Shown here one piece after another: positions 1 through 32,497 of a stretch of DNA of 41,462 nucleotides. How positions within the stretch are numbered: the stretch's first letter is position 1; each line of letters opens with the position of its first letter. The notes under the pieces were generated by a model that was not told the DNA's origin, made no database searches, and saw nothing but the letters and a program-made list of their open reading frames with translations. Source of the stretch: a virus; the IMG/VR virus record IMGVR_UViG_3300035180_000144, positions 1 to 41,462 of that record; one strand, 5' to 3'. Both the position numbers and the translations under genes were made by a program.

Positions 1-1
1 G

Positions 2-1183: not shown

Positions 1184-1207
1184 GATGCCCCCGCCCAAAG
1201 GACAGAA

Positions 1208-3400
1208 ATGATCCCACCGAACACCCAAGCCCCCGCTACAGTCGTACCGCCGCCTCCAAACAGACAAGCTCTCGATGCCCTGGGCGGGCGGCTGATGTCG
1301 CGCTTCACGCAGTACGAGACTGAGCGGCGTCTGGCTGAACTGAAGTGGATGCGCAACCTGCGCCAGTTTCTGGGTGAGTACGACCCGGACATCAAGGTCA
1401 AGCTCGACCCGAACCGATCGCAAGCATACCCCCGCTTGACGCGGGTGAAGTGCGTCAGCACTGTATCCCGGCTGATGAACCTGATGTTCCCCAGCAGCGA
1501 GAAGAACTGGTCCATCGAGCCGTCACCTGTACCCAACTTGCCGATCGAGATCATGCAGTCCCTGCTGGCTCAGGTGCAGCAGCAGATTATGCAGGCGCAG
1601 CAGCAGGGTCAGCCGGTAGACGTAGCACAAATGGTTGAGCTGGCAGTGCAGGCTGAGGCGAAGGTTCGCGCAGAAGCGATGAGCCAGGAGATTGATGACC
1701 AGCTGGATGAGCTGGGCGGGACGAAAAATCAAGATTACGTGACGCTGTGCCGTAAGGTGGTGGCGTCAGGCGTGCTGTACGGCGCAGGCGTTCTTACCGG
1801 GCCGTTCGTGAGAGAGCAGCAGCAGCGGTCATGGCAGATGAACCCAATGACAGGGCAGCTTGAGCCGAGCGTGGCGTCCGTCATGCGCCCGCAGTTCGAG
1901 TTCGTGCCGATCTGGGACTACTACCCTGACATGAGCGCGAAGACCTGGGACCAGATGGACGGGCAGTTCCAACGCTACGTCATGAGCCGTCATCAAGTGC
2001 GCAAGCTGGCTGATCGAGAAGACTTCTTCGGTAGTGTGATCAAGGAGTATCTGGCCCAGCATCAGCAGGGGAACTACAAGCGCCGTACCTACGAGACTGA
2101 GCTGAAGTCTTTAGGTGTGCATACTGCTGTGGGAGACAACCAGGGGCGCAAATACGAGCTGATCAAGTGGGAAGGCTTCGTGTACGCACCTGAGCTGTCG
2201 AACATCGGCATCGAAGTGCCGCCTGAGATGATGGCCGAGGATGTGCCTGCAGTCGTGTGGGTGCTGGATGGCACCGTGATCAAGGGTGACTTGAATCCGT
2301 GGTTCCGGCTTTCCGAGGGTGGCTTCGTCAACACGTACCACCAGTTTGTATTCGAAGAAGATGACACTGCGCTGATCGGTAATGGCCTGCCCAACGTGAT
2401 GCGTGACAGCCAGATGGGTGTCGCAGCTACCGCGCGGATGGCGATGGACAACGCCTCAGTGGTGTGTGGTCCGCAGCTAGAGCTGAATACGGACCTGATG
2501 CGTCTGGACCAAGACCTGAAGAGCATCGGTCCGTACAAAATCTGGTACAGGGAAGGCACGGGTGCGGACGCGAGCTTACCTGCAATACGCGAGATCAAGA
2601 TCGACTCACACTTGCAGGAACTGATCTCGATGATGAACGTGTTCAAGGAGTTCGCAGACACGGAGACGTTCGTGAACCCGGCGAACAGCGGCGACATGAG
2701 CAGGGGACCGAGCGAGCCGTACCGGACAGCAACAGGCGCGAGCATGTTGAAGGGCGATGCAGCCTTGCCGTTCAAAGATGTGGTGCGCAATTTTGACGCG
2801 TTCACGCAATCTGTGATGACATCCCTGCTGGCGTTCAACCAATACCTGAGTACAAAGGACAGCATAAAAGGCGACTACCAAGCGGTGGCGCGCGGTGCCA
2901 TGAGTCTCGTAGCGAAAGAGATCAGAGGTAGCCAGCTGGATCAGTATGTGATGTCATTACAACCAGAAGAACGTGCGTTCGTGAACTGGTACGAGATGGC
3001 GTTGGAACGCGGTGCAGCGCGTGACATGCCGTTGAGCAAGGTGTTCGTGGCGCAGATTGAGGCTGACCAGATCAAGGCAGGACAAGCGGCACAGCAGCAG
3101 AAAGAATCGCAGGATCAGGAAGAACTGATGAAAGCATCGGTACGGAAGATTCTTGCAGAAAGTCTCAAGAACCTGTCGCAAGCGGGTAAGAACGATGCAG
3201 CCGCAGCGACAACTGTTTTTTCCACACTTTTGAAGGGGCTTGAAGCCGGTGTTACACCAAACGAGGTCGCAGCTGCTGGAGGTGCGAAGAACTATGTTCC
3301 AGTGTCACCAGGAACCGGGGTTGATAGCAGTCAAGCAGTGGCTGCAGCACCGGATGGACAAAATCCAGGTGGGGCTGACCTCGGCCAGTTCCTGGGATGA
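1208..3400 (+). CDS. Portal protein
   Basis: This 730-aa protein directly follows TerL. It has the long mixed alpha/beta layout of podovirus-type portal proteins, which form the dodecameric ring at the capsid vertex through which DNA enters and leaves. The N-terminal part (about residues 30-110) is charged and helical with conserved-looking stretches such as LNPDR-type sites and FPSSEKNWSIEPSP. A Gln-rich coiled segment (about residues 118-150) follows. The C-terminal third is helical and rich in Gln, Lys and Glu, fitting the crown/barrel. An AAAGGA ribosome-binding site sits 7 bp before the ATG. Its last 107 bp also encode the start of a small gene in another frame. The portal call rests on position, length and sequence character, not on a catalytic motif. 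Confidence 0.9.
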   Translation: MIPPNTQAPATVVPPPPNRQALDALGGRLMSRFTQYETERRLAELKWMRNLRQFLGEYDPDIKVKLDPNRSQAYPRLTRVKCVSTVSRLMNLMFPSSEKNWSIEPSPVPNLPIEIMQSLLAQVQQQIMQAQQQGQPVDVAQMVELAVQAEAKVRAEAMSQEIDDQLDELGGTKNQDYVTLCRKVVASGVLYGAGVLTGPFVREQQQRSWQMNPMTGQLEPSVASVMRPQFEFVPIWDYYPDMSAKTWDQMDGQFQRYVMSRHQVRKLADREDFFGSVIKEYLAQHQQGNYKRRTYETELKSLGVHTAVGDNQGRKYELIKWEGFVYAPELSNIGIEVPPEMMAEDVPAVVWVLDGTVIKGDLNPWFRLSEGGFVNTYHQFVFEEDDTALIGNGLPNVMRDSQMGVAATARMAMDNASVVCGPQLELNTDLMRLDQDLKSIGPYKIWYREGTGADASLPAIREIKIDSHLQELISMMNVFKEFADTETFVNPANSGDMSRGPSEPYRTATGASMLKGDAALPFKDVVRNFDAFTQSVMTSLLAFNQYLSTKDSIKGDYQAVARGAMSLVAKEIRGSQLDQYVMSLQPEERAFVNWYEMALERGAARDMPLSKVFVAQIEADQIKAGQAAQQQKESQDQEELMKASVRKILAESLKNLSQAGKNDAAAATTVFSTLLKGLEAGVTPNEVAAAGGAKNYVPVSPGTGVDSSQAVAAAPDGQNPGGADLGQFLG

Positions 3401-3491
3401 AGTACGCAAATTGCAGGGGCAGCACGCAGAATGTAAATCTCTGCTAGACTGCATTGAGAAACCAACATTTGATGAGGTGAAGTCGGAATGA
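3294..3491 (+). CDS. Small 65-aa protein overlapping the portal 3' end
   Basis: This is an out-of-frame gene beginning inside the portal gene. The ATG at 3294 is preceded by a strong Shine-Dalgarno (GGAGGTG, 3278-3284) at good spacing. Longer in-frame extensions would need a weaker TTG at 3240. The product is a charged helical protein containing LIAVKQWLQHRMDKIQVGL, then a predicted helix around DEVRKLQGQHAECKSLLD. This hydrophobic heptad pattern is common in small proteins found between portal and scaffold genes of many phages. The stop overlaps the scaffold ATG (ATGA at 3488-3491), and the gene fills what would otherwise be an 87-bp gap, suggesting translational coupling. The function is unknown; a head-assembly accessory role is an inference from position. 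Confidence 0.75.
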   Translation: MFQCHQEPGLIAVKQWLQHRMDKIQVGLTSASSWDEVRKLQGQHAECKSLLDCIEKPTFDEVKSE

Positions 3492-4345
3492 GCGACGTTA
3501 AAGCGGTTTACGAGCAGGAACCCGCAGCAGTAATTCTTGGAGGGGGTGATGCGTTCAATGATGCGTTTAACGATGCGGTCGCTGATAAGCCTCAAGGCGA
3601 GGACCAGACCGTGCCTGTGGTCGTTGAGCCGGAAGCCGAGGTTGAAGGTGCCGCACAGACCGAGACGGCTCCTGCAGAGGTTGCGCCTGAGCCGGAAGTC
3701 GAGACTGCTGAGCCAGACTACCAAGCCGAGCTTGCTCGGATGCGATCCGAACTTGATGCCCTGAAACGTCCGTCTGAACCACAGCAACAAGCTCAGCCTG
3801 AACCGGAAGCGCCGCCGCTGTACACAGCGGAACAACAACAAGCCCTGGACGGTTTCAAGAAAGAGTGGCCTGAAGTCGCTGCCGGGATCGAGCTTATGAT
3901 GCGCCAAGTACAGTATGAAACGGCGCAGCAGGTGTTCAACGCGCTTGCGCCCACACTGAACCCCGTTCTGGACTACTACCAGACTTCGGCGGTGGATATG
4001 CAGTATGCTCAACTGGTCAAAGCTCACCCCGACTATGACCAGATTTATGAAAATGTTTTGCAGTGGGTTGACAAACAGCCTAGTTACATGAAAACTGCGA
4101 TGCAGCATGTAGTGGAAGAGGGGTCTGCCGCCGAGGTGGTGGATATGATCAACCGCTACAAAATGGAAGCAGGCAAGCCGTTAGCAGCTGTACCGGCCCC
4201 TGCAGCCAAAGTAACTGACTTACCGGAAGCGGCTAAAAAAGTAGCTCGATCTCTCGGGGTTGTCAGTTCAAAGCGTAGTGCAGTTCCGCAAAGTCAAGAC
4301 CCTACGGATTTTGATGGCGCATGGACCGAAGCAATGAACGGGTAA
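3488..4345 (+). CDS. Probable capsid scaffolding protein
   Basis: This 285-aa protein lies between portal and major capsid genes, where scaffolds are normally encoded. The N-terminal half is strongly acidic and rich in Pro, Ala, Glu and Gln (residues about 25-115), with a short duplication (AFNDAFNDAV). The C-terminal half is helical and ends in a more basic segment (AAKKVARSLGVVSSKRSAV) before a short acidic tail. Known scaffolds are disordered or helical, acidic, and carry a basic C-terminal capsid-binding region, which matches. The start ATG overlaps the stop of the preceding small gene, and the sequence GATGAGGTGAAGTCGGA supplies a GAGGTG ribosome-binding site. No protease motif was seen. 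The assignment is based on composition and context. Confidence 0.75.
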   Translation: MSDVKAVYEQEPAAVILGGGDAFNDAFNDAVADKPQGEDQTVPVVVEPEAEVEGAAQTETAPAEVAPEPEVETAEPDYQAELARMRSELDALKRPSEPQQQAQPEPEAPPLYTAEQQQALDGFKKEWPEVAAGIELMMRQVQYETAQQVFNALAPTLNPVLDYYQTSAVDMQYAQLVKAHPDYDQIYENVLQWVDKQPSYMKTAMQHVVEEGSAAEVVDMINRYKMEAGKPLAAVPAPAAKVTDLPEAAKKVARSLGVVSSKRSAVPQSQDPTDFDGAWTEAMNG

Positions 4346-4365
4346 TTCTTTTTTAGGAGATTGAT

Positions 4366-4548
4366 ATGGCAGCAATCAAGGGCACGCAGGTCGATCCTGC
4401 AACCCAACAGGTTTTGCTGGCAGTGTTGGCTGATCTTACAGCGTTGAAGACTCAGCTTGCACAGCTGATTACTGACTACAACGGCAATGCCACGATTGCG
4501 ACGGATACCACTGCTGTGGCACCGACGCTCACCACGACCGCAAGCTAA
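4366..4548 (+). CDS. Hypothetical 60-aa protein between scaffold and capsid genes
   Basis: This small protein has a good ribosome-binding site (TAGGAGA, about 9 bp before ATG). The N-terminal two thirds form one amphipathic helix (PATQQVLLAVLADLTALKTQ) with leucines at heptad spacing, suggesting oligomerisation. The last 20 residues are Thr/Ala-rich and likely disordered. There is no recognisable domain. Its place between scaffold and major capsid genes suggests a minor head protein or assembly factor, but nothing in the sequence proves this. Confidence 0.7.
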   Translation: MAAIKGTQVDPATQQVLLAVLADLTALKTQLAQLITDYNGNATIATDTTAVAPTLTTTAS

Positions 4549-4558
4549 CTTTTTTAAC

Positions 4559-4570
4559 GACTCAGGAGTC
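4559..4570 (+). promoter_or_regulatory. Palindrome enclosing the capsid gene ribosome-binding site
   Basis: The sequence GACTCAGGAGTC is a perfect 5-bp inverted repeat around AG, and it contains the AGGAG Shine-Dalgarno of the major capsid gene (ATG at 4576). A T-run (4550-4555) precedes it. As a hairpin the loop would be very tight, so it may be only a weak structure, but it could modulate access of ribosomes to the most highly needed message. Confidence 0.35.
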
Positions 4571-4575
4571 ACACT

Positions 4576-5661
4576 ATGTCCAGCGTCATCAACTACGGCG
4601 ACATCTCGCCTCGTACCGCAGCGTACGCCATCAAAGATATGCTCAAGCGCGGCATGCCGTACCTCTGTATCGAGAAGTTCGGTCAGACGTACCCCATACC
4701 CACCAATGCCACTAAAGTTGCCAAGTTTCGTCGTTATTTTCTGAGCGGTACGACGGGTGCTGCGGGTGCAGGTACTGCCTCCGGTTCTTCCGGTGGTGCT
4801 AACCCCGCCTACTACGTCCCACTGGCGACCACAGCGCTCGTTGAAGGTGTGACCCCATCTGGCCGTAACCTCGCAAACCAGGATTACACTGTCACCTTGG
4901 CGCAGTACGGAGACTACACCACCATTACCGATGTGGTTATGGATACCCATGAAGACCCGGTGCTGCAGCAAGCTACCGAGATTCTTGGGGAGCAGGCCGC
5001 ACTGACTGTTGAGACCTTGCGTTTCAATGTCCTGAAAGCCGGCACCAACGCGTTCTACGCTGCTGGTACTACGGGTCAAGTCACCACCGTGCGTACTTCG
5101 GTTATCGGGCCTATCAACCGCGAGTTGCAACGCAAGATCACGACTGCACTGACTCGTCAGAACGCACGCCCGATCACCCAGGTTGTTTCGTCCACCCCCA
5201 ACTTCCGTACTGAGCCGGTGGAAGCCGCGTTCATTGGTCTGGTTCACCCCGACTGCGAGAGCGACATCCGCAATATGAACGGGTTCATCTCTACGAAGCA
5301 GTACGGCACCGTGACCCCGTTCGAGAACGAGATCGGCTCCGTTGAGCGCGTTCGTTACCTGTCGTCCACTGTGTTCGCCCCCTGGGTAGATGCGGGTGCG
5401 GCTACCTCGGGTGGTACGACCTACCGTTCCACGACCGGCACTCTCTGGGACGTGTACCCGATCCTGTTCCTGGCACGTGATGCTTATGGTATCGTACCGC
5501 TGAAGGGCAAGGACTCACTGACCCCGATGGTCGTGAATCCGAAACCTGCCGCTGGCGACCCGCTGGCTCAACGTGGTACTGTGGGTTGGAAGACCATGCA
5601 GGCAAGCGTGATTTTAAACGAGGCTTGGATGGCTCGTGCTGAAGTCACCGCCACGTCCTAA
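4576..5661 (+). CDS. Major capsid protein, N4-gp56 family
   Basis: This 361-aa protein assembles the icosahedral shell. The N-terminus (NYGDISPRTAAYAIKDMLKR, then an Ile-Glu-Lys-Phe-Gly-Gln stretch and KVAKFRRYF) and the later conserved pattern around GVTPSGRNLANQDYTVTLAQ and YGDYTTITDVV are characteristic of the N4-gp56 family of HK97-fold capsid proteins. The region VHPDCESDIRN and the tail segment MQASVILNEAWMARAEV also fit that family. Length is close to the usual 350-400 aa. The Shine-Dalgarno AGGAG lies 7 bp upstream of ATG. It sits between scaffold/small genes and a small beta-rich gene, the expected head cluster. I see no cleavable prodomain. The assignment is from recognised sequence patterns. 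Confidence 0.93.
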   Translation: MSSVINYGDISPRTAAYAIKDMLKRGMPYLCIEKFGQTYPIPTNATKVAKFRRYFLSGTTGAAGAGTASGSSGGANPAYYVPLATTALVEGVTPSGRNLANQDYTVTLAQYGDYTTITDVVMDTHEDPVLQQATEILGEQAALTVETLRFNVLKAGTNAFYAAGTTGQVTTVRTSVIGPINRELQRKITTALTRQNARPITQVVSSTPNFRTEPVEAAFIGLVHPDCESDIRNMNGFISTKQYGTVTPFENEIGSVERVRYLSSTVFAPWVDAGAATSGGTTYRSTTGTLWDVYPILFLARDAYGIVPLKGKDSLTPMVVNPKPAAGDPLAQRGTVGWKTMQASVILNEAWMARAEVTATS

Positions 5662-5674
5662 GCTACGCTGAGCT

Positions 5675-5694
5675 GAGAGGGCTCCGGTCCTCTC
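5675..5694 (+). terminator. Intercistronic hairpin after the capsid gene
   Basis: The inverted repeat GAGAGG/CCTCTC has an 8-nt loop and starts 14 bp after the capsid stop codon. It is followed by CGCTTAACCC, with no clear T-run, so it is more likely a weak or leaky terminator or an mRNA-end-protecting hairpin than a strong terminator. Confidence 0.5.
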
Positions 5695-5721
5695 GCTTAA
5701 CCCAAATTTCAGGAGATACAC

Positions 5722-6057
5722 ATGGCTGCACAAATTCTCGCCCCCAACACCCAGACCAATTTGGCCGGTGTTACCAATCACGCTGTTGGTAAAGTCGTTT
5801 CGGATTCTGGTACTGCCGCTGCACAGACGTTCACCCTGGGCTTCGCTCCCCGCGTTGTCCGCTTCCACAACCTGACCGACCGCATCTCTGATGAGTGGTA
5901 CGAAGGCATGGACCCCGCCTCCTCGCTGCACTCGGTTGCTGCTGGTACGCGCACTCTGGAAACCACCAACGGCATCGCCGTGTCGGGTAACACCTTCACT
6001 GTGACCGCTACCACGATGGTTGCCAGCAAGACCTTCTATTGGGAAGCGATTGGCTGA
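5722..6057 (+). CDS. Putative capsid decoration or minor head protein (111 aa)
   Basis: This 111-aa protein is Ala/Thr/Val-rich and almost entirely predicted beta, with the pattern AQTFTLGFAPRVVRFHNLTD, then GNTFTVTATTMVASKTFYWE. Such small beta proteins right after the major capsid gene are often decoration (cement) proteins on the outside of the head, or subunits of head fibres, but no specific family is recognised. It has an AGGAGA ribosome-binding site 6 bp before ATG. It is flanked on both sides by RNA hairpins (5675-5694 and 6068-6087), which suggests its message may be processed or expressed at a different level from the rest of the head operon. Confidence 0.75.
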   Translation: MAAQILAPNTQTNLAGVTNHAVGKVVSDSGTAAAQTFTLGFAPRVVRFHNLTDRISDEWYEGMDPASSLHSVAAGTRTLETTNGIAVSGNTFTVTATTMVASKTFYWEAIG

Positions 6058-6067
6058 CCGCATGACT

Positions 6068-6087
6068 CTGGGGACTTTGGTCCCCAG
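6068..6087 (+). terminator. Perfect 8-bp stem-loop in the head operon
   Basis: CTGGGGAC and GTCCCCAG form a perfect 8-bp stem with a TTTG loop, 11 bp after the putative decoration gene. No T-run follows (ACCATCAGG), and the next gene's Shine-Dalgarno begins 6 bp later. It is probably an attenuator or an RNA-stability element rather than a full terminator. It is GC-rich and should be stable. Confidence 0.6.
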
Positions 6088-6103
6088 ACCATCAGGAGTT
6101 CGT

Positions 6104-6361
6104 ATGGATGATTGTGTACTCAAGATTGAGGTTAATCGAGGCGGATTTGGTGTCTACGTCTGCGATCCAGAGATCAACAACGACGACCCGAAAAAGCCGT
6201 GGAAAGACCCGTGGGTCGAGTACAATTTCGACACGGTGCAAGGTGTGTGCGCTTTCGTTACCGAGGTGCTACCCAAATTGAAACCGCAAGATAGTTCCAG
6301 TACCTTCGATGCCGCTTTCGCGCGTGCAGTGAAGGAAGATGAAAACGCAGAAGGAGATTGA
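6104..6361 (+). CDS. Hypothetical 85-aa head-region protein
   Basis: The start at 6104 was chosen because an AGGAG Shine-Dalgarno (6094-6098) lies just upstream and the reading frame before it runs through the preceding hairpin. The product begins MDDCVLKIEVNRGGFGVYVC and contains the acidic, Lys-rich segment DPEINNDDPKKPWKDPW. The rest is mixed alpha/beta and ends in an acidic tail. I do not recognise a family. The pattern of residues resembles small conserved proteins encoded between capsid and adaptor genes of podoviruses, whose roles are unknown. The following gene starts 1 bp after this stop. Confidence 0.7.
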   Translation: MDDCVLKIEVNRGGFGVYVCDPEINNDDPKKPWKDPWVEYNFDTVQGVCAFVTEVLPKLKPQDSSSTFDAAFARAVKEDENAEGD

Positions 6362-6362
6362 C

Positions 6363-6683
6363 GTGGCAGCGAACCCCGTAGTGGACAAAGCAGAAACCAA
6401 GGTAAAAGGTTACGCGTGGCAAAAGCGCTACCCTGAAGCCAAGGCTGTTCGTGTGGTATTCGAGGAAAATCCTGAAATTCCACCTACAGGGCTGTTTATT
6501 CAGATCAACGGTGATCCGTTCGTCGTTGTCGCAGGAGAAGAGGTCGAAGTACCTGACTTTTTGCTCGAACATATGGATAATGCTGTCATGGGTGCGCCCG
6601 TATTCAACGCTCAGACCCAGCAGGTTATGGGCTACCGCAACAAAACCCGTTTTCCTTATCGGGTGATCGCAAGAGACGTGTAA
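6363..6683 (+). CDS. Hypothetical 106-aa head-region protein
   Basis: The GTG at 6363 is the preferred start: it has AAGGAG at 6351-6356 with a 6-bp spacer and follows the previous stop by 1 bp. The alternative ATG at 6339 has a Shine-Dalgarno that is too close. The protein contains a beta-rich core (GLFIQINGDPFVVVAGEEVE) followed by VPDFLLEHMDNAV and ends with TRFPYRVIARDV. The pattern of a peptide binding loop then PDFLLEHM-type helix and FPYRVI ending recurs in small head or connector-region proteins of phages, but no function is known to me. Its position before the adaptor gene suggests a virion or assembly role. Confidence 0.7.
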   Translation: MAANPVVDKAETKVKGYAWQKRYPEAKAVRVVFEENPEIPPTGLFIQINGDPFVVVAGEEVEVPDFLLEHMDNAVMGAPVFNAQTQQVMGYRNKTRFPYRVIARDV

Positions 6684-7421
6684 ATGACCCTGACAGAATT
6701 GCTTGACGAACTTCGTAAGAACATTCTTCGAGACAGTTCTGGTCTTGTCTCAGGTACGTCTGACAGCCTTTGGTCGGATGAAGCCCTTGTTCGGTACATC
6801 AACGACGCGTATTTTCGGTTCTGCCGGTTGACGCTTTCTCTCACTGACCGCACATCATCGCTGACTGAGGTGGTGTTGGAGCCAGGGGTGTCTGTCTACC
6901 CGTTGGACAAGTCCGTCCTTAGTGTCATATCTGCTCGCTTGGCGGGTGCGCCAACCGATTTATCCCGTACCGGGCATGGTGTGCTAGATACGCCGTTTCG
7001 TACGGACGACTCCCTGTTCTTCGACATCAACCTCCTTGCAGCGCTGCCTCCGGGTAAGCCGATGGCATTCGCCACTGACGAAGAAGATGCGTCATTTCGG
7101 GTGTACCCGGAGCCTTCTGCTGATTACGCAGATCAGGTGATTAACCTCCGCCTGATACGGCTACCTTTGGCGAAATTGTCCTTAGACAACCCCGAGGAAG
7201 AGCCCGAGATTCGTGAAGAGTGGCAGCTTGGGATGCTTGACTGGGCAGCGTACAAGGCGCTTTCGAATCATGACGTGGATGCAGAATCGCTGATACGCGC
7301 GAAAACGCGCAAAGCTGCCTTCGAAGAGTGGGTTGCTGACGCGAAACTTGAAGCTCGCCGTCGCCGTTTCGCCGGTACGGTATGGAGTTTCGGTCGTGAC
7401 GGCTTCGCATGGGTTAAGTGA
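6684..7421 (+). CDS. Head-tail adaptor-like protein (245 aa)
   Basis: The ATG follows the previous stop codon directly. The N-terminus (MTLTELLDELRKNILRDSSG, then LWSDEALVRYINDAYFRFCR) is the helical signature of phage adaptor proteins of the DUF6682 type, which bind under the portal ring. A central beta part (residues about 70-150, with VYPLDKSVLSVISARL) and a C-terminal helical part (EEWQLGMLDWAAYKALSNHD) ending in an Arg-rich tail (EARRRRFAGTVW) complete the fold. The Arg-rich end may contact DNA or the portal. The call is based on this N-terminal pattern and gene order. Confidence 0.8.
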   Translation: MTLTELLDELRKNILRDSSGLVSGTSDSLWSDEALVRYINDAYFRFCRLTLSLTDRTSSLTEVVLEPGVSVYPLDKSVLSVISARLAGAPTDLSRTGHGVLDTPFRTDDSLFFDINLLAALPPGKPMAFATDEEDASFRVYPEPSADYADQVINLRLIRLPLAKLSLDNPEEEPEIREEWQLGMLDWAAYKALSNHDVDAESLIRAKTRKAAFEEWVADAKLEARRRRFAGTVWSFGRDGFAWVK

Positions 7422-8377
7422 TGCACGAGTACCCGAGCACAGAACCCTTACCCCCGGTTGTGCTTGGCCCTTGGCCTGTAGGGATGAACAACCGGAAAGA
7501 GGGGTACAAACTTCCTCCAGGCGCGGCGAGTAATATTGTGAACGTAGATTTGGACGATACGGGCAATGCCCGCCGTCGAGCAGGTTACACAAAGATCGTC
7601 TCAGGACTGAACACACGCGCGGGGTACTCGTGCGATGTGGGTACGTTCTACATCTCTGGCACGAACTTAATGCGGCTGAACGATGACAACACATCAACCG
7701 CGCTGTTTTCAGGTGTCCTGGGGGAAGTTGTCGCGTTTGAGTGCTCCAATGGCGTAGTGTATTTCACGGACGGCTTGATTACCAAGCGTATCGTGAACGG
7801 AGTCGTTACCAGCTGGGATATCGACGCACACCTCGCAGCTGACCCTGAGTACATGGCAGTACCTGCCGGCTCGATAGTGCGTGAGTTCTACGGGCGCGTT
7901 TATGTCGCAGTGGGTAAGGTGGTCTGGTTCACCGACCCATTCATGCTGGGCAGCGTGCAGAAGCAGCGCAATTTCATTCAGTTCCCGGCAGACGTGACGA
8001 TCATGGAGCCTGTCTCGGGCGGCATCTGGTTCGTCGCAGACCAGACGTACTTCTACGCAGGTGGCGGGCCAGATGAGTTCATGCCGAAGTCCCAGTTGAA
8101 CTACGGCGCAGTCCCAGGTACGAGCATCAAAGTACCATATACTAACGACGTTATGTGGTACAGCGTGAGAGGAGCAGTCGTGGGCACTCAAGACGGTCAG
8201 ATCAAGAATATTCAGGAAGCGAATATCGCAGCTGAGTCGGGTACGGTTGGAACCACTTTGATCCGGGAAGAGAACGGCATCAAGCAGTTCATCGCAAGCA
8301 TCAAAAACCAAGGTGTGTCACCGCTAGCCACAACTAGCTGGATGGACATGGAAGTCATTCGCAAGGCAGGAGAATAG
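7421..8377 (+). CDS. Probable tail/connector structural protein (318 aa)
   Basis: The ATG at 7421 overlaps the adaptor stop (TGATG). A GTG codon one triplet earlier is possible but less likely. The 318-aa protein is beta-rich with regularly spaced Gly-Tyr/Phe-Val strands (SNGVVYFTDGLITKRIVNGV, FYGRVYVAVGKVVWFTDPF, GGIWFVADQTYFYAGG), as in a propeller or barrel of repeated four-stranded sheets. The opening GPWPVGMNNRKEGYKLP motif, typical of proteins that assemble under the adaptor, is followed by the ALxNIVNVDLDDTGNARRRAGY pattern. This NxxV-D-xGxxRRRxGY pattern is shared with many phage tail-nozzle or stopper genes. A nozzle or stopper role is an inference. Confidence 0.75.
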   Translation: MHEYPSTEPLPPVVLGPWPVGMNNRKEGYKLPPGAASNIVNVDLDDTGNARRRAGYTKIVSGLNTRAGYSCDVGTFYISGTNLMRLNDDNTSTALFSGVLGEVVAFECSNGVVYFTDGLITKRIVNGVVTSWDIDAHLAADPEYMAVPAGSIVREFYGRVYVAVGKVVWFTDPFMLGSVQKQRNFIQFPADVTIMEPVSGGIWFVADQTYFYAGGGPDEFMPKSQLNYGAVPGTSIKVPYTNDVMWYSVRGAVVGTQDGQIKNIQEANIAAESGTVGTTLIREENGIKQFIASIKNQGVSPLATTSWMDMEVIRKAGE

Positions 8378-8379
8378 TT

Positions 8380-8892
8380 ATGGACTTGATTCACCAAGCA
8401 GACATCGGGTTCGTGTACGTCTACGAATGCTTCGATATCAACGGCAAGCTCAAATGGCATGACCGAGAAGAGAACCTCATCCCCAACGTAGGGCGTGACT
8501 ACATCCTCACCGCTGCGCTGCTCGCAGGCTCTCAGCTCCCCAACTGGTATATCAGTCTGTACGAGAACACCCGGGTACCTTTGGTCAGTGACACCATGGC
8601 TACACTGATGGCTGATTGCGGTGAGGTTACGGCATACACCAGCGCGGGGTCGTTACGTCTGGCTCTGACCCCAGATGCGCTGAGCAACGGCGTGTTCTCG
8701 AACCTGACTACACCAGCTCAGTTCGTTTTCACTGCAGCAAAGACCATCAAAGGCGGGTTCATCACATCCAGCGCGGCCTGGGGGTCTACTTCGGGGACGC
8801 TGTTATCTGCAGTAGCGAACACTTCACCCAAGTCGGTCGGTGTCGGTGAGACGCTGCATGTCACCGTCGGTCTCTCACTTACTACGGTTTAA
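8380..8892 (+). CDS. Putative virion protein (170 aa)
   Basis: This 170-aa protein starts with AGGAG (8368-8372) 7 bp upstream of ATG. The N-terminal segment (YVYECFDINGKLKWHDREEN) followed by NLIPNVGRDYILTAALL is a recurring opening of small phage structural proteins, and the rest is predicted beta (Ala/Thr/Ser-rich, with the strand pattern PAQFVFTAAKTIKGGFITSS near the middle and VGVGETLHVTVGLSLTTV at the end). It is the first of three consecutive small beta-rich genes. It may be a tail appendage or head-decoration subunit; the exact role cannot be told. Confidence 0.7.
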   Translation: MDLIHQADIGFVYVYECFDINGKLKWHDREENLIPNVGRDYILTAALLAGSQLPNWYISLYENTRVPLVSDTMATLMADCGEVTAYTSAGSLRLALTPDALSNGVFSNLTTPAQFVFTAAKTIKGGFITSSAAWGSTSGTLLSAVANTSPKSVGVGETLHVTVGLSLTTV

Positions 8893-8901
8893 GGAGCCAT
8901 C

Positions 8902-9306
8902 ATGTCCCTGACGAATACTGCTGAAGACATGCTAGTAAAGTGGATGTTCACTAATGCCACCACCCCTACTCGCCCAACCGCATGGTACGCCGCGCTGCAC
9001 ACAGCAGACCCTGGTGAAGCGGGTACAGCCAGTGAGGTCGTGGTGGGTACTGACGCGCACTACGTGCGCAAGAGCGTCACGTTCGCGGACCCTGTGACAG
9101 ACTCAGGCCAAGTGCTGTCTGAGGGCGCTGTGACCTGGACAGTGGATACGGCTTCTGCCGGGTACACCGTGACGCACCTCTCGATCTGGACTGCCAGCAC
9201 CGCAGGCACCTGCCTGATCTCCGGCGCGTTGCCTGTTCCGCGCGCACTCACTGCTAACCAAGTGCTCACTTTCAGCATTGGCGACATCATCGCCGCTCTC
9301 AACTAA
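8902..9306 (+). CDS. Tail-fibre-like virion protein, Gp80-like family (134 aa)
   Basis: The protein starts with a helix (TAEDMLVKWMFTNAT), then WYAALHTADPGEAG, a strand-rich centre and a final part with YTVTHLSIWTAS and GDIIAALN. The order of an N-terminal helix, a LHTADP-type motif and beta strands with hydrophobic THLSIW near the C-terminus is that of small phage proteins annotated as tail-fibre-like or Gp80-like. The gene at 32510 encodes a second member of the same family (compare YVTLHSADP and THFSIGELASG). AAGGAG lies just upstream of the ATG. It probably forms part of a virion appendage; the precise location is unknown. Confidence 0.7.
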   Translation: MSLTNTAEDMLVKWMFTNATTPTRPTAWYAALHTADPGEAGTASEVVVGTDAHYVRKSVTFADPVTDSGQVLSEGAVTWTVDTASAGYTVTHLSIWTASTAGTCLISGALPVPRALTANQVLTFSIGDIIAALN

Positions 9307-9315
9307 GGAATCGCC

Positions 9316-9759
9316 ATGTCGTTCAAAATTTCAACTGGGTTGCGCAATCACATGCTGGTTACGGGTTCCGTCAAGTCGGGTATGGACGGCGGCGTCATCA
9401 AGATTTACGCGGGTACTGAGCCAGCAGACGCGGACGCTTCGATCGGCGCAGCAACACTGCTGGATACGATCAGCAACAACGACACAGGCACTGGCATCAA
9501 CTTCGACGCGACACCGACATCAGGTGTGCTGGTCAAAGCGCCTGCAGAAGTCTGGAGTGGTACTTGCGTAGCCAGTGGTACGGCGACGTTCTACCGCTTC
9601 GTCAGCTTGGCAGATGATGGCACCAGCTCTACTACGTTCAAACGGATGCAAGGCACGGTCGGCGTTGTCGGTGCGGACTTGCTGGTCTCCAGCACAGCGT
9701 TCGTCTCTGCTAACCTGCGGCAGATCAACTCGTTCTCTGCAGGTATGCCTGCGGGTTAA
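9316..9759 (+). CDS. Putative virion protein (147 aa)
   Basis: This 147-aa protein has an AAGGA ribosome-binding site and follows the previous gene by 9 bp. The first 45 residues (ISTGLRNHMLVTGSVKSGMD, then VIKIYAGTEPADADAS) followed by GAATLLDTISNN and a beta-rich region (SGTCVASGTATFYRFVSLAD) resemble small virion proteins that sit in the same cassette of many phages. The pattern IKIYAGTEPADAD is shared widely. The C-terminal 30 residues (LLVSSTAFVSANLRQINSF) form a strand pair. Function unknown; possibly a tail or head surface subunit. Confidence 0.7.
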   Translation: MSFKISTGLRNHMLVTGSVKSGMDGGVIKIYAGTEPADADASIGAATLLDTISNNDTGTGINFDATPTSGVLVKAPAEVWSGTCVASGTATFYRFVSLADDGTSSTTFKRMQGTVGVVGADLLVSSTAFVSANLRQINSFSAGMPAG

Positions 9760-9762
9760 GTC

Positions 9763-11472
9763 ATGAGCATCTACGTTGACGGCGAGCGCAGTCGTCAACG
9801 ACTCGGCTTCGCCAAGAGCCTGCTGAACAAACTGAAGATGTTGGGGCTGCGCAGCAAGAAGCTGTTATACGATGGCTTTTTGTACCGGGTTGATGTTCTC
9901 GCTCCTGGTCTGGATAAGATCGCCGTCACTGCGCCGATGGGTGCAGCAGTTGTGTGTTCTCAGCCCAGCGGGATGAAGCTCATGACCGCTGACTACTGGC
10001 TGACTGGACTCACTCCAGGCAGGGATGTTTACGTCGTGGACAATACTGTTTCATCGGGTACGGAATACACAGCCATATCAAATAACGCCGTACTACCGAA
10101 TGCCAAGTTCGTCCCGCGAGCTACGACTTCACCACTTGTTGTATCGCCTTACACAGATTACCCAGACCACGTTCCAACACCTGCGCTGTACTCGTTCCCG
10201 AGTGAAGCGTTTTGGGTAACAGTTAGTGCTTCCCCTGCGACGAGTGCCTTGTGTTTAGTCGAAGCGCGATTGAACTTTTACTCACAAGCAGGTGCTGCTG
10301 AAAAACGCATTTCGGCATTTATTGAGGGCCAGATTTCGGGTGTCGGTTATCAAGTTACACAAGGGGTTTCGTCAGCGTCGTTGTCTATAGTGAGTCACTC
10401 TGTAGGTGTCTACAGGTTCAACTCGGTTAGTCATGAGCTGGAGTGTGCACAAAGTTTTATTGGCAACCCGAGTGGTATGGGTGCTGCAACATTCCCAGGC
10501 TGGATCATGTTTTACGGAGCACCGTCTGGGCTACAAACTCTCCTACTAGCGTACCCAACAAACAGCGCTTCTGCGATAGGCAGCTTCGCTTTTGCGGTGT
10601 CAGCAGGTGATCAACCCACACTGCTGCATTGTGTGAGTGCTGTAAATTTTGGGTCCTACTTCGCAGCGAATCCTACGCATGAGCCTTGGCGCATCTTCTT
10701 TAGCATATACACCCTTGGAGCGGGTTCAGTAACAACCTACCCGGTCAACACGACCCTGCTGAATACGCTTGCGCCTGGCGTAGTAACGGCAGGTGTTGTT
10801 GATTGGGGTAAAGCTCGAGCCATGATGTGGCAACTGTTTCCTTGGCCAAACAATAACTACACAGTGGCACCGGATTCTGCGATGTTTTACTCAGCTGCTG
10901 GAAACGTCTACACATGGACACGCAAGTACGGCTCGGTTGAGTTTTCGGTGTCAGGTATGCAGGGTGTGTCATTGGTCCTACCGACACTTGTTGCCACCAC
11001 TCCAGGTGTGCGACCAGAGATTTACCATGTGGGTGGCGGCAAGTATTTTTGCAGTGCTTTCAAGCCAAACAAGCTAACCGACCAAGCAGACCCGGATGAC
11101 CACATCGGTGTTGTTGGGCTCTATTACGGTTCTCCGTTCGTCAGCTGGGAAACCCTACCTACGCCTACAGAACGGCTTCTGCAGGTGCGCGTGCTTCGAG
11201 CTTCAAGCACCGAAATTGTGGTTCTAGGGGTGCTGTTCGACGCAGGTACGTGTTATTTCGGGATACTTCGTCGTACATACTCCCTGGGGACCTGGACAGG
11301 GGAGTGGCAAAAGCTGGCTCCGCTGGATGTGACAGTGACTGACCCCGACGAAGCTGCATGGGCGCTTGGGGTGTTTGGGGAGGTCAAGCCAAACGAATAT
11401 CTGGCAGGCCCACCCGCACTGCCGCAGATGCCGAATATACCGTACAGCCACTATGCTACGACGATGCCCTAA
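9763..11472 (+). CDS. Large beta-rich virion surface protein (569 aa)
   Basis: The gene follows its neighbour by 3 bp and has only a weak Shine-Dalgarno, so translational coupling is likely. The N-terminus has a basic helix (RQRLGFAKSLLNKLKMLGLR) followed by SKKLLYDGFLYRVDVLAPGL; the remaining about 500 residues are strand-rich with many Ser, Thr, Tyr and Gly. The basic N-terminal helix could anchor the protein to the virion, and the beta part would be exposed. I recognise no enzyme motif. It is probably a tail appendage or a component of the tail tip; other roles cannot be excluded. Confidence 0.7.
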   Translation: MSIYVDGERSRQRLGFAKSLLNKLKMLGLRSKKLLYDGFLYRVDVLAPGLDKIAVTAPMGAAVVCSQPSGMKLMTADYWLTGLTPGRDVYVVDNTVSSGTEYTAISNNAVLPNAKFVPRATTSPLVVSPYTDYPDHVPTPALYSFPSEAFWVTVSASPATSALCLVEARLNFYSQAGAAEKRISAFIEGQISGVGYQVTQGVSSASLSIVSHSVGVYRFNSVSHELECAQSFIGNPSGMGAATFPGWIMFYGAPSGLQTLLLAYPTNSASAIGSFAFAVSAGDQPTLLHCVSAVNFGSYFAANPTHEPWRIFFSIYTLGAGSVTTYPVNTTLLNTLAPGVVTAGVVDWGKARAMMWQLFPWPNNNYTVAPDSAMFYSAAGNVYTWTRKYGSVEFSVSGMQGVSLVLPTLVATTPGVRPEIYHVGGGKYFCSAFKPNKLTDQADPDDHIGVVGLYYGSPFVSWETLPTPTERLLQVRVLRASSTEIVVLGVLFDAGTCYFGILRRTYSLGTWTGEWQKLAPLDVTVTDPDEAAWALGVFGEVKPNEYLAGPPALPQMPNIPYSHYATTMP

Positions 11473-11510
11473 CGTGATAGACTTGACAAACAGAGCTTTC
11501 GGGGTGGTGT

Positions 11511-13556
11511 ATGACCTGCTGCATACTTGAGAAAAGGGCGACAACAACCGTAATCCCCGGAAGCCCCGGCTCGCCTGCAGTTCCAGGTTCTCCGTACATC
11601 CCTGCGCGCTGCTACACCCAAGATGTGACATCATGCGCGTGGATACCGAACCCGTCCATCACCTACGTATGGGAGTTGATTCCCGCGTGGTATGCCAACG
11701 GGGTGCTGGTGCAAGCAGCGTACTACACGTGGGTAGCGTATATCTACGGTGTGCGTTTTGGCGATCAAGGGTTAAATGGGTACTCCCCATACATCTACTC
11801 GTGTACCACAACGACTCAGTATGTGTGTACGCCTGCAGTTGCGGCAGTGCCTTCGATTCCAGGAATACCTGCTACACCGTCGCAGGTCATTGTATCGTTG
11901 AACGTCGGTTGGACATCGCACTCACGCAGCATCACAACCCTAGACGAAGGCAGTTACCTTGCGTTCACACTTGACCCGGCCAACACAGGCACGTTCGTCG
12001 GTGTGGATGTCGCAGGTAAAGACACTCAACAGCCCGCGCTGTTCCCACATGGTTTGATGATCGACCCTTCAGGGGTTTACGTCTACGAGAGTGGGAACGT
12101 CATTACGCAGCTAGCAGGGGGATACACAAGCCTGACTGAGTTTCACATCGAGCGCCGTCCTGACAGAACGATTCAGTACACAGCTGACACTGCCCGTTAC
12201 ATCAGCACTGTCCCAGCCAGCTCGACGGACGATCTCTACGTTTATACGCTGCTGTACTCCGGTAACGACAGGCTGATATGCGCATCACTCCAAACGATCG
12301 GCGTGGATACGCTGCTTGAGTCCATAACTTTCAGCGGTGCAGGTGCGCTTAATCTGGCTTCTCCCCTGGTTGACAACACGGCTTTCTCCGCTCTGACGCT
12401 GAGCGGTTCAAGCGACCTGCTGGCAGACGGCGTGGTCACAACTTCTGGCGGCGTGATTATCGGGGTGAGCGCTGCAGGCTGGATGGGTACAGGCACAGGT
12501 TCGCTGACGATGACGTTCAGCACCATCGACGGTCTGGCGTATTTTCCAGCACTGACTGCGTTCGGCGCAGAGATGAGCGATCTCACGTACGGCTCGTCAT
12601 ACTTCCCTGCGATGACAGTCTCCGGTGACATGTACGGCGCGTATGTACCCGCTACAGCTACGACGGCGTACGGCGTGCTGCCTCAGCTGGTGTCAAGTGG
12701 GATCGTGATCAGTGTGGACTACTGTCAGGGTGACGCGAACTTCCCTGCGCTTCAAGCCATTGGCGGTGACTACGCGTACGGCATAGGGTCGGCGTATCTG
12801 CCTGCGATGCTGTCTTGGGGGGATGAGGGGCAAGTGGGCACGATGTGGATGATGTCGCATAGTGTCATGGGTGATGCTCAGACTCAGCTCTCCGAACTTG
12901 TGCTGGTGATCAACTCCTACGGCATCCTTCAGAGTGTCTACTCGGACAGCGTGATCAAGGTCCAGGAGTACATCAGTGCCCTGCTGGCGGAAAGTCAGTT
13001 CTCACTGATCGGCACGTATGGGATGTCGCAACTCTCCGCGCTGACTGTCATGTCACTGCAGAACCAGGCGGTTTCCGGCCAAGCTGATCTGGATACTATC
13101 GGTCGCGTGTGGGTGGTCAACACGGAGTCCAGCGCTTCGACGCAGTACAGCAACTACGGCTTCAATAGCTTCTTCGTCCGTGATGGTGAGAGCTACGGCG
13201 TGGCTGATGATGGCATCTACCGCCTGTCCGGTGATACTGACCTGCTTGAACCCATCGACGCTCAAATCAACGTCGGCTCGATGCGCCTGGGAACTACGAA
13301 CGACAAGCTGCTGCCTGCGGTGTACATCAACGCAGCCTCGGGCGGCAAGCTGATCCTGAAGATCGAGGTGGATGGTGCCGACCCGTACTATTACGAGGCA
13401 CGGTCAAGCAGCGAGGAGTTGGATAATCACCGGGTAGACACTGGGCGCGGCTTGAAAGGAAACAACTGGACGTTCACACTGATGAACCAGAACGGTGACA
13501 ACTTTGAGCTGGCGAACCTTGAGTTCGTACCGCTGCAAGGCAGCAGGAGAATCTGA
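11511..13556 (+). CDS. Tail appendage protein with Pro-Gly collar and repeated beta motifs (681 aa)
   Basis: The N-terminal region (residues 1-130) is unusual: CC near the start, a Pro-Gly-Ser stretch (VIPGSPGSPAVPGSPYIP), several cysteines and aromatic residues, then a second Pro-rich stretch (PAVAAVPSIPGIPATPSQ). Middle repeats of the type YFPALTAFGAEM, YFPAMTVSGDMYGAY, NFPALQAIGGDYAYG and AYLPAMLSWGDEGQ (about residues 340-445) suggest a beta-solenoid or repeated sheet. The C-terminal part is beta-rich with GKLILKIEVDG and ends NGDNFELANLEFVPLQGS. The stop overlaps the next start (TGATGA). It could be a fibre or spike subunit; no catalytic residues are evident. Confidence 0.7.
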   Translation: MTCCILEKRATTTVIPGSPGSPAVPGSPYIPARCYTQDVTSCAWIPNPSITYVWELIPAWYANGVLVQAAYYTWVAYIYGVRFGDQGLNGYSPYIYSCTTTTQYVCTPAVAAVPSIPGIPATPSQVIVSLNVGWTSHSRSITTLDEGSYLAFTLDPANTGTFVGVDVAGKDTQQPALFPHGLMIDPSGVYVYESGNVITQLAGGYTSLTEFHIERRPDRTIQYTADTARYISTVPASSTDDLYVYTLLYSGNDRLICASLQTIGVDTLLESITFSGAGALNLASPLVDNTAFSALTLSGSSDLLADGVVTTSGGVIIGVSAAGWMGTGTGSLTMTFSTIDGLAYFPALTAFGAEMSDLTYGSSYFPAMTVSGDMYGAYVPATATTAYGVLPQLVSSGIVISVDYCQGDANFPALQAIGGDYAYGIGSAYLPAMLSWGDEGQVGTMWMMSHSVMGDAQTQLSELVLVINSYGILQSVYSDSVIKVQEYISALLAESQFSLIGTYGMSQLSALTVMSLQNQAVSGQADLDTIGRVWVVNTESSASTQYSNYGFNSFFVRDGESYGVADDGIYRLSGDTDLLEPIDAQINVGSMRLGTTNDKLLPAVYINAASGGKLILKIEVDGADPYYYEARSSSEELDNHRVDTGRGLKGNNWTFTLMNQNGDNFELANLEFVPLQGSRRI

Positions 13557-28726: not shown

Positions 28727-30547
28727 ATGGCCACCCCTAGCATTAAAAACAGAGTAGGTAACGCCGTCTCCGGCACACCCGGAACAGGCACGATCACGCT
28801 CGCTAGTGCTGAGACGGGCTATCAATCGTTCACTACAGCCTACGCAGCCGATGCCAACGTCGATATCCTGATTGAGGACGGTGATGCCTGGGAGATTGCG
28901 CTAGACTGCACCTACACACACAGCGACACTACAGTTACACGCGGCACGTTTGAGGCGAGTAGCACAGGATCGACGGTAAGTTTCACCAGTGCTGCGAAGG
29001 TTTATGTGATTTTTTCGGCGAACCGGCTGGCTGACCTCGTTGGCCGCATTTCGATCAACGCTATTGGAAACCCAGGACGACAAGGTTTCGGCGTTGGCAT
29101 CTGCCCCGCATTGCCCTCGGGTTTTGCTGCGATAGCTGGCAGCACCGATCCCGCGTCCGACAATTACGGCAACTACCAGTACAGCGACGGCTCTGTCATG
29201 TGCTGGATTCCGGCGTTCTATTACCGGACCAACGATGTGCGCAATCCGACCTATGCCGCGTACACGACAAACAGCATCGATGTGCAACCCTATAGCGTGT
29301 TCGTTGATGTCGCCACTGCCAACGCTGCCGGCTACGCGCTGCACCGTGCGTTCTACGATGGCGGGGCAATCCAGCCTGGTTTTTTCATCGACAAATACCA
29401 GGTCTCGAACAATGGCGGCGTGGCATCCAGCATCGCACTGGGCAACCCCCTCTCCATAAACGCCACGCTTCACAACCCGATCAGCGCGTTGAATGGCGCG
29501 CCGGTTGCCAATTACGGCGGTTGTTTTGCTGCCGCCAAAACGCGCGGCGCGCGTTTTTCCCCGGCCATGCGCTACCAGTACGCAGCACTAGCGCTGCTGT
29601 CGATGGCGCACGGTCAGTCGGCAACCAATAACGTGTGGTGTGCCTGGTACGATGCCGTCGGCGTAACCAATTATCCCAAGGGCTGCAACAACAATGCGCT
29701 GAAAGACCAGAACGACACCACCGTGGTGTATCAGTCGGACGGCTATAGCAACTGCGGAAAGACCGGTAGCGCCACCAACTTCGCCAAAACCACCCACAAC
29801 GGACAGAACTGCGGCGTGGCTGATCTCAATGGCAACATGTGGGAGGTGTCTCCCGGAATCACCTACGTTGCCGGTACAAAAGCCATAACCGGAATCACGC
29901 TCTCAAATCCGGTCGATCTACTAATCGTCGGCCACGGCAGGACGACCGGCGATATCGTACAGATCGAAAGCATCGTCGGCACGACGCAGCTAAACGACAA
30001 AATCTACAAGTGCACCGTGGTGGACGTTGATAACATCACGCTCGATGGAGTTGACGGTACGGGTATGACCGCGTACGCATCAGCGGGAACACTGACGTTT
30101 GGCACGTTCTACGCGCTCAACACTAGTTATGCCGCCAAAAACCTGACCGGCGGCAATACGCTCTCCACCGATCAATGGGGAGCCACCGGCGTGGCTGCGC
30201 ATAGCACACCCATCGTGCCCACGATCCGCACCGACTATTCACAAAACGGTTTCGATAAACGCTTTGGCAAATCAACCAATCAGGTGCTCAGCGCCGCCAC
30301 GTCAGGCGCTGGCTGGGTGCTAACCGGGTTAGGGATGCCGCTGAGCACGGGCATCTCCGATGGCACGTCCGGCAGCAACCTATTCGGCGCAGACTATTTT
30401 TATCAAAAAATTTTAAATGAGCTTTGTTTGCTCTCCAGCGCCAGCTGGAGCTACGGCTCGAGTGCCGGGGTCTGGGCCGCGAGCTGGAACAACACGCGGA
30501 CGGGCTCGAGCGATCGCGTGGGCTCGCGCGCCGCCAGTTACCTGTAG
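28727..30547 (+). CDS. Receptor-binding protein with C-type-lectin/FGE-like domain, candidate DGR target (606 aa)
   Basis: The N-terminal about 110 residues are a beta head (IKNRVGNAVSGTPGTGTITL, then VYVIFSANRLADLVGRI). From about residue 140 on, the sequence shows formylglycine-generating-enzyme/C-type-lectin features: FFIDKYQVSN, NGAPVANYGGCFAAAKTRGA, RFSPAMRYQYAALALLSMAH and ADLNGNMWEVSPGIT. An extra domain of about 80 residues (AITGITLSNPVDLLIVGHGR onward, residues about 386-463) is inserted before FYALNTSYAAKNLTGGN. The last about 37 residues (SASWSYGSSAGVWAASWNN, then TRTGSSDRVGSRAASYL) match the variable end of DGR-diversified phage receptor-binding proteins. It is probably the tail adhesin. 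No reverse transcriptase or template is in the window. Confidence 0.8.
   Translation: MATPSIKNRVGNAVSGTPGTGTITLASAETGYQSFTTAYAADANVDILIEDGDAWEIALDCTYTHSDTTVTRGTFEASSTGSTVSFTSAAKVYVIFSANRLADLVGRISINAIGNPGRQGFGVGICPALPSGFAAIAGSTDPASDNYGNYQYSDGSVMCWIPAFYYRTNDVRNPTYAAYTTNSIDVQPYSVFVDVATANAAGYALHRAFYDGGAIQPGFFIDKYQVSNNGGVASSIALGNPLSINATLHNPISALNGAPVANYGGCFAAAKTRGARFSPAMRYQYAALALLSMAHGQSATNNVWCAWYDAVGVTNYPKGCNNNALKDQNDTTVVYQSDGYSNCGKTGSATNFAKTTHNGQNCGVADLNGNMWEVSPGITYVAGTKAITGITLSNPVDLLIVGHGRTTGDIVQIESIVGTTQLNDKIYKCTVVDVDNITLDGVDGTGMTAYASAGTLTFGTFYALNTSYAAKNLTGGNTLSTDQWGATGVAAHSTPIVPTIRTDYSQNGFDKRFGKSTNQVLSAATSGAGWVLTGLGMPLSTGISDGTSGSNLFGADYFYQKILNELCLLSSASWSYGSSAGVWAASWNNTRTGSSDRVGSRAASYL
30437..30547 (+). 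other. Candidate DGR variable region (VR)
   Basis: These last 37 codons of the receptor-binding gene encode W-S-Y-G-S-S-A-G-V-W...W-N-N-T-R-T...V-G-S-R-A-A. Many codons are AGC, TAC, GGC, GAT or CGC at positions where related proteins have Asn, as expected if AAC/AAT codons of a template were altered at adenines. An unchanged AAC AAC pair remains at 30488-30493. GC-rich bases (30518-30535) near the stop could act as an initiation-of-homing-like element. I found no near-identical second copy in the window, so the template would lie elsewhere. Confidence 0.5.
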
Positions 30548-30706
30548 CGCGATCCAACCGAAAGCGTGACAGCGAGATGATCAGGCCAACCGCGATACAT
30601 CCGGGTGCGTGCGACGGACTGGTTGATGCCGTGGTTTCCAGACTCGGCTACGTCTGCCGCACCGCATAACTGCGCCATATGACCCGCCACCTCAAGGAGC
30701 ATCACC
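30548..30706 (+). other. 159-bp gap after the receptor-binding gene
   Basis: There is no convincing gene here. The sequence is GC-rich and holds a short frame beginning MIRPTAIHPGACDGL of about 30 codons, with no good ribosome-binding site. I see no template repeat of the variable region and no strong terminator. AAGGAG near the end is the ribosome-binding site of the next gene. Confidence 0.6.
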
Positions 30707-31141
30707 ATGCCCTCTATCATCAGCTACCAAAAAGCCTACGACGCGACCACCACTTACCAGCTCACGCTGCCTGATGGTGCCACGGAGTTGTGCGAAATTG
30801 CGGGTATGACGTATATCGTCCTGCCGGATGGTGCCATGCTGCCGCCTCAAGCCGAACAGATTGATGCCAGTGTATCCGTCGTCACGCTAGATGCCGCGCT
30901 GCGCACCGCGATCATCGCCGCCAGCCCGCACTGCGCGCTGATTGATGAGCGGATGCACACAAAAATCCGCGATGTCTACCAGCTCGAAGATGAACTGAAA
31001 TACGCCCGCATCGGCGTCGGTGCCGCCATGGGCATGTATCAGCCCACAGCAGATGAAGTGGCCGGCATGATTGCGTTTGGCACGCACGTCGAGACTGTCC
31101 GGCAGTGGGGACGAGACGAGCGGGCAAAGCTGGGGTTGTAA
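30707..31141 (+). CDS. Tail-fibre-associated hypothetical protein (144 aa)
   Basis: The protein has a beta-rich N-terminal half (TTYQLTLPDGATELCEIAGM, then YIVLPDGAMLPPQAEQI) and a helical C-terminal half with DAALRTAIIAASPHCALIDE, then MHTKIRDVYQLEDELKYARI and ending VETVRQWGRDERAKLGL. The pattern I-x-A-A-S-P-H-x-x-L-I...RY-x-x-x-D-E...W-G-R-x-E-R/K-A-K-L-G-L is found in small genes beside fibre or receptor-binding genes in other phages. Such proteins may help fibre assembly. AAGGAG lies 10 bp upstream of ATG. It is not similar to the accessory protein of known DGRs as far as I can tell. Confidence 0.7.
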   Translation: MPSIISYQKAYDATTTYQLTLPDGATELCEIAGMTYIVLPDGAMLPPQAEQIDASVSVVTLDAALRTAIIAASPHCALIDERMHTKIRDVYQLEDELKYARIGVGAAMGMYQPTADEVAGMIAFGTHVETVRQWGRDERAKLGL

Positions 31142-31679: not shown

Positions 31680-31720
31680 AGTATTTGCTGTAGAATTCCA
31701 CAAAGGCTGATGGAGCAGTG

Positions 31721-32497
31721 ATGACCCCGAAGAAACAAGACATCGAGATACTGCAAGGCAAGAGTTTTGAGCTACCCGTAAAGTGGGAGGTCGAACCTAT
31801 TGTTTACAAGGCGATCACTGGGATTACCCAGGCGGCACCTTGTGTCGTCACCTGCACCACGCACGGGGTGCCTGACGGCTGGCGCGTAGCTATTGTGTCA
31901 GTCAAAGGGATGACCCAGATCAACGCAAGTAACCCACCGAAAGACAGCGAGTATGTCGTGGCTACGAAACTGGATACAGACAGTATTGAGCTGAACACTG
32001 TCAACGCAGCTGGGTACAAACCTTATACCAGTGGTGGCTACGTTCAGTACAACACCCCGAAAGACCTAGCGAACTACACGGCACGAATGAGCATCAAAGA
32101 CAAGCTCAGTACACCTACGGCCATGCTCTGGGTTGCGTCCACCGTGTATCCCGAAGGTTACTACGTGTTGACTTCTACGGGGATTGTGCTCAGGGCAACG
32201 ATCGGTGGTACATCAGGTATGACCGAGCCGACAGCGGCGGGTGTTGACAACACCGTGACATGGGAAGAAGTCACATCGTTTTCAGGTAGCCGTGAGCTAA
32301 TGTCACTCACCACAGCGAATCTCCGTATCATCCTCGACAACACAACGAAGACGATCAAGCTAGACATCGACGCAGCTGACACTGCGGCGATTACGTGGAA
32401 AAAAGGGTTATATGATCTTGAGCTTGAATCCCCCGGTGGAGTAGTTACTGCTCTGCTGTATGGCTCTGTAACCGTAACACGTGAAATCACTACCTAA
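31721..32497 (+). CDS. Virion protein with FCCH-like domain (258 aa)
   Basis: ATG 31721 is preferred because GGAG (31712-31715) is 5 bp away; GTG 31718 would be too close. The N-terminal part (QDIEILQGKSFELPVKWEVE) is a beta sandwich start found in phage tail proteins. Residues about 31-110 (AITGITQAAPCVVTCTTHGV, then VAIVSVKGMTQIN and LDTDSIELNTVNAAGYKPYT) form an FCCH-like domain, also present as an insertion in the 28727 gene. The C-terminal part (TARMSIKDKLSTPTAMLWVA, then GLYDLELESPGGVVTALLYG) resembles tail-associated beta proteins. It probably belongs to the fibre or collar set. Confidence 0.7.
   Translation: MTPKKQDIEILQGKSFELPVKWEVEPIVYKAITGITQAAPCVVTCTTHGVPDGWRVAIVSVKGMTQINASNPPKDSEYVVATKLDTDSIELNTVNAAGYKPYTSGGYVQYNTPKDLANYTARMSIKDKLSTPTAMLWVASTVYPEGYYVLTSTGIVLRATIGGTSGMTEPTAAGVDNTVTWEEVTSFSGSRELMSLTTANLRIILDNTTKTIKLDIDAADTAAITWKKGLYDLELESPGGVVTALLYGSVTVTREITT

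Follow-up and report, generated by a model that had tools for sequence, protein, structure and literature searches.

Diversity-generating retroelements (DGRs) hypermutate a target gene with the help of a reverse transcriptase (RT). In BPP-1-type phage DGRs (mtd/avd/TR/RT), the C-terminal variable region (VR) sits on a C-type-lectin fold and carries an adenine-specific signature. Efficient homing in BPP-1 requires that the VR be followed by a hairpin, and in phage DGRs this hairpin has a GC-rich stem of 7-10 bp and a GRNA loop (PMC3240598). Leftover DGR targets are also known. Among isolates of Treponema denticola, VR-bearing targets were left after the core DGR (RT/TR) was lost (PMC4891356). 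In Nostoc PCC 7120, all3226 is a target with remnant homology between TR (template repeat) and VR and with no RT nearby, and the authors suggest that components may be removed after a good variant has been selected (PMC7517822).

We analysed a linear virus record of 41,462 bases from IMG/VR, IMGVR_UViG_3300035180_000144 (the window). A receptor-binding gene in the window shares the lectin fold, the C-terminal VR, and the adenine signature with BPP-1-type DGRs, and its relatives share the avd-TR-RT order and the GRNA-loop hairpin after the VR. In contrast to the BPP-1 type, the window has no avd, no TR, no RT gene, and no recognisable GC-rich hairpin with a GRNA loop, and only the VR and a 3' stub of the RT remain. 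We think it very likely that the VR was written by an adjacent DGR whose cassette was later deleted, which would make this locus a relic in cis with one fixed binding variant. A preliminary description of this DNA had proposed that the system was completed outside the window, acted in trans, or was a relic. The usual site of the cassette is present and is empty except for the RT stub, which favors the last of these. The features of the locus are listed in Table 1.

Table 1. Features of the target gene and of the emptied cassette site (positions in the window).
Feature	Positions	Strand	Basis or remark
DGR target gene, FGE/C-type-lectin-like receptor-binding protein, 606 aa	28727..30547	+	homology, profile, fold match of relative
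Variable region (VR), diversified at adenine sites	30425..30538	+	homology to 60 VR/TR pairs
Junction zone	30548..30603	+	no GRNA-loop hairpin could be recognised; traces of avd 5' or RT sequence possible
RT pseudogene stub, 34 codons of DGR RT C-terminus	30604..30706	+	tblastn and DNA similarity
AAGGAG within what was RT coding sequence, the likely Shine-Dalgarno of o144	30694..30699	+	sequence; RT/o144 overlap in relatives
o144, gene after RT in intact relatives, with its start overlapping the RT 3' end there	30707..31141	+	homology

The protein encoded by the target gene ends in LSSASWSYGSSAGVWAASWNNTRTGSSDRVGSRAASYL, followed by the stop codon. The profile of its family matches TaqVP from Thermus aquaticus, a DGR variable protein whose structure has been solved (PDB 5VF4, PMC6328139; E = 1e-9). 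The model of the window's own protein was poor (pLDDT 53), so we modelled a relative that does not have the FCCH insert (L023; pLDDT 85). The predicted fold of this relative matches 5VF4 (E = 2e-12) and also Mtd (1yu2, E = 2.5e-3). The family profile and the model of the relative support a C-type-lectin fold for the target, in line with the carrier fold that had been predicted from the sequence. By profile and structure search, TaqVP belongs to the same fold family as the window's protein, but the latter has an extra FCCH-like insert and has lost its DGR. This FCCH-like domain, of a kind found in ubiquitin E1 and in phage tail proteins, interrupts the central part of the target (about amino acids 385-460), and a second, related one is found in a nearby open reading frame (o259, 31718-32497). 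Some weak sequence matches to antibody chains were set aside as chance.

The C-terminus of the target has the signature of adenine-specific mutagenesis. Since the window's own TR is lost, we took the adenine sites from the TRs of 35 relatives whose VRs match the window's in length. The VR in the window differs from that of its nearest relative (L001) at 13 of 23 template-adenine sites and at 7 of 79 other sites (Fisher p = 4e-6). It differs from the VR of L002, which has one extra residue, at 18/23 and 9/79 sites (p = 2e-9), and the VRs of L001 and L002 differ from each other at 15/23 and 2/79 sites. The body of the target gene is 72% identical to that of L001, so the backbone of the VR has changed less than the sequence around it, and the adenine sites have changed more. 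If we compare the window's VR to the nearest surviving TR (from L003), then the contrast is weaker (12/25 vs 17/77, p = 0.014), as one would expect from a template other than the window's own. The codons agree with the earlier proposal of adenine-specific change at Asn codons (AAC or AAT): where the TRs of the 35 relatives have AAY, the window has AGC AGC TAC AGT AGC AAC AAC GGC AGC GAT CGC, so all 11 of these codons are NNY (p = 0.008, from the gene's own NNY frequency). These comparisons confirm, at the level of sequence, that 30425-30538 is a real DGR VR made by mutagenic retrohoming. The preliminary description was right to place a VR at this end of the gene, although it gave slightly shorter limits (30437-30547).

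We identified relatives of the target at 80 loci in viral contigs and at 22 loci in bacterial genomes (including Thiobacillus, Rhodoferax, Spongiibacter marinus, and Zetaproteobacteria). In 60 of these about 100 loci, the C-terminus of the target is near-copied by a TR that lies 542-780 bp downstream of the VR. (We sought pairs up to 1.5 kb apart, with one search without a distance limit inside each locus.) Within the 80-nt cores of these 60 pairs, 513 of the 534 mismatches are at TR adenines. We accepted a pair only if at least 75% of its mismatches were at adenines, and nearly all of the pairs were far above this threshold. The gene order in intact relatives is target-avd-TR-RT-o144. The Avd between the target and the TR matches PF22296 (bAvd, E = 3e-17), and the RT on the 3' side of the TR exceeds the Pfam cutoff. 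These cassettes are standard DGRs. The end of the RT overlaps the start of o144 in 36 of 38 intact loci (median 67 nt), and o144 starts about 1.6-1.8 kb past the stop codon of the target.

In the window, o144 starts 160 bases past the target's stop codon, and the sequence in between includes the 3' end of an RT gene. When we searched the gap alone, with o144 excluded, ten RTs matched it by tblastn (best match 60% identity over 30 amino acids, E = 1e-9), and searches of RTs against the whole window landed on the same site. The DNA of the stub is 74% identical to that of L017 over 77 nt, all of which are outside of o144. The RT frame has an in-frame TAA (30667-30669), and the conserved LGHA has become LGYV. 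A remnant of the cassette is thus present at the syntenic position, between the target and o144. The preliminary description saw no RT, accessory gene, or second copy of the VR. It was correct in that the window contains no match to the RT domain (PF00078), no match to Avd after the target, and no second copy of the VR or template repeat by a near-copy search, but it missed the RT C-terminal fragment directly downstream of the target. Pattern scans of IMG/VR with the VR did not find a TR either, and returned only the VRs of L001 and L002. We also considered a trace of the 5' end of avd at 30568-30585, but its score was within the range of shuffled sequences, so we do not claim it.

The hairpin is also not recognisable. 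Among perfect stems that close a 4-nt loop after the window's VR, the best has 2 bp, and there is no GC-GRNA-GC core within 45 nt after the VR. A core of this type is present in 46 of 56 intact relatives and in 9 of 24 cassette-less loci, and close intact relatives of the window retain the post-VR hairpin.

We propose the following order of events. The last ~38 codons of the target would have been written by mutagenic retrohoming from a TR about 550-600 bp downstream, within an avd-TR-RT cassette. A later deletion would have removed avd, the TR, and the RT except for its last codons. The 3' end of the RT also holds the ribosome-binding site and the start of o144, which is probably why it was spared, and we infer that the overlap between RT and o144 is why RT 3' stubs survive. 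The target gene would have been left intact, giving a phage with one fixed binding variant and no diversification in cis. The VR is most likely frozen now and no longer rewritten.

Similar losses recur among the relatives. We assessed the 80 loci with enough downstream sequence, including the window; L001 and L002 were left out of this scoring, as both end within 22 nt of the VR's stop codon. The cassette is intact in 56 of these loci and missing in 24 (two of the 24 rows duplicate other rows: L038/L104 and L077/L111). RT or avd scraps remain in 16 of the 24 cassette-less loci: 11 keep RT fragments (weak in L056) and 5 have just avd, whole or in part, while 8 keep nothing. These remnants indicate that the direction of change is loss. 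In a tree built from the conserved region of the target by a quick search without bootstraps, parsimony requires 17 changes in the presence or absence of the cassette, of which at least 9 are forced by well-supported branches. Some cassette-less loci stand beside intact sisters (93.5% DNA identity for L061/L063 and 89.5% for L067/L064). In other pairs the cassette was apparently lost longer ago, as in L013/L014, whose adenine bias has faded (14/23 vs 44/79).

The scars are of various kinds. The scars of the window and of L004 differ, so these look like separate losses. In L104 (11130-11420) and L038, the hairpin is kept, o144 is at +151, and the start of avd is apparently fused to the 3' end of the RT, which would be due to an internal deletion. 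L010 (11597-12010), which has retained Avd and an 8-bp hairpin with a GATA loop but has lost TR and RT, shows that the losses differ in kind. At three loci, an HNH endonuclease gene on the minus strand occupies the position of the cassette's interior, between the VR or the 5' end of avd and the RT 3' stub or o144 (L048, 9542-10072; L063, 11569-12180; and L064, 11633-12238). The three HNH proteins are 41-47% identical, their loci are in three separate clades, and the one from L063 matches phrog_374 (E = 2.5e-72). It is possible, though we consider it somewhat less than an even bet, that this target family uses DGRs transiently: the tip would be diversified and then the cassette would be repeatedly deleted or replaced, which would freeze the selected variant, with the overlap of RT and o144 dictating the scar.

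The window's portal protein matches those of HMO-2011-group podoviruses (best match Pseudomonas phage Rollin, 40%). We saw no terminal repeat in a repeat search within the window. Records that are longer and carry a related portal measure about 54-69 kb, so roughly one third of this phage's genome is probably missing and the window is probably about two thirds of it. This phage was also assembled a second time, as L123 (99.99% identical over positions 1-12248 of the window, to which the overlap is confined), and L123 adds only 1,053 bases upstream, which complete the start of the terminase. Among the records with the window's backbone that we searched, some of which are fragments, we found neither a full target nor an RT (0/30 records had an RT, and several of these are 54-69 kb). 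What four other records (G004, G005, G007, and G080) have in common with the window is limited to the target, o144, and the FCCH-like domain. Because the backbone records lack the module and these four share nothing else, the target and o144 probably entered an HMO-2011/Rollin-like podovirus backbone together by horizontal transfer.

Could a TR and RT that lie in the host, in a co-infecting phage, or in the missing part of this phage still diversify the VR in trans? Other DGRs do have remote targets (PMC4891356, PMC7517822), the window does not hold the whole genome, and the non-adenine backbone of the VR is still well conserved relative to L001 (7/79 differences). We nevertheless consider this unlikely. 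The TR lies close to the VR in all 60 of the relatives in which we found one, none of the 30 records with the window's backbone has an RT although several are 54-69 kb long, and the scans of IMG/VR yielded no TR. Also, the hairpin that BPP-1 homing requires (PMC3240598) cannot be recognised here and is kept in close intact relatives.

Another scenario is that the target gene arrived without the cassette, and that no DGR has ever occupied the gap at this locus in the phage's lineage. Neither the target nor an RT is otherwise present in the backbone family, so the gene was probably imported. But the RT 3' stub lies between the VR and o144, exactly where the RT ends in intact relatives, so the imported piece came from a cassette-bearing locus, whether the deletion took place before or after import. 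We consider acquisition of the gene alone to be very unlikely. We give even less credence to the idea that normal selection on an ordinary lectin tail, and not DGR action, produced the variation at the C-terminus. C-type-lectin loops can vary without DGRs, but here the variation is concentrated at the relatives' template adenines, the codons are NNY throughout, the backbone is conserved, and the adenine pattern is seen in the TR/VR pairs of dozens of relatives. A relic in cis remains the best explanation.

As in T. denticola (PMC4891356), the window's target has persisted after loss of the core DGR. There, however, the loss was inferred from isolates and no RT scrap was reported, while here we have a phage, an RT stub, and many parallel losses. 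Similarly, Nostoc all3226 (PMC7517822) has no RT pseudogene and the window does. The window is ordinary in kind and is unusually well documented. With a few word searches of the open-access literature, we found no description of RT-stub scars or of HNH replacement of phage DGR cassettes, which does not prove that there is none.

A VR-like adhesin tip without an RT need not imply a system that acts in trans. The main interest of the window lies in the repeated losses of the cassette around it, in its relatives. Are DGRs kept for standing variation, or are they discarded once a good variant has been found? This target family can address that question, as it offers many parallel, datable losses beside intact sisters, which makes the question testable.
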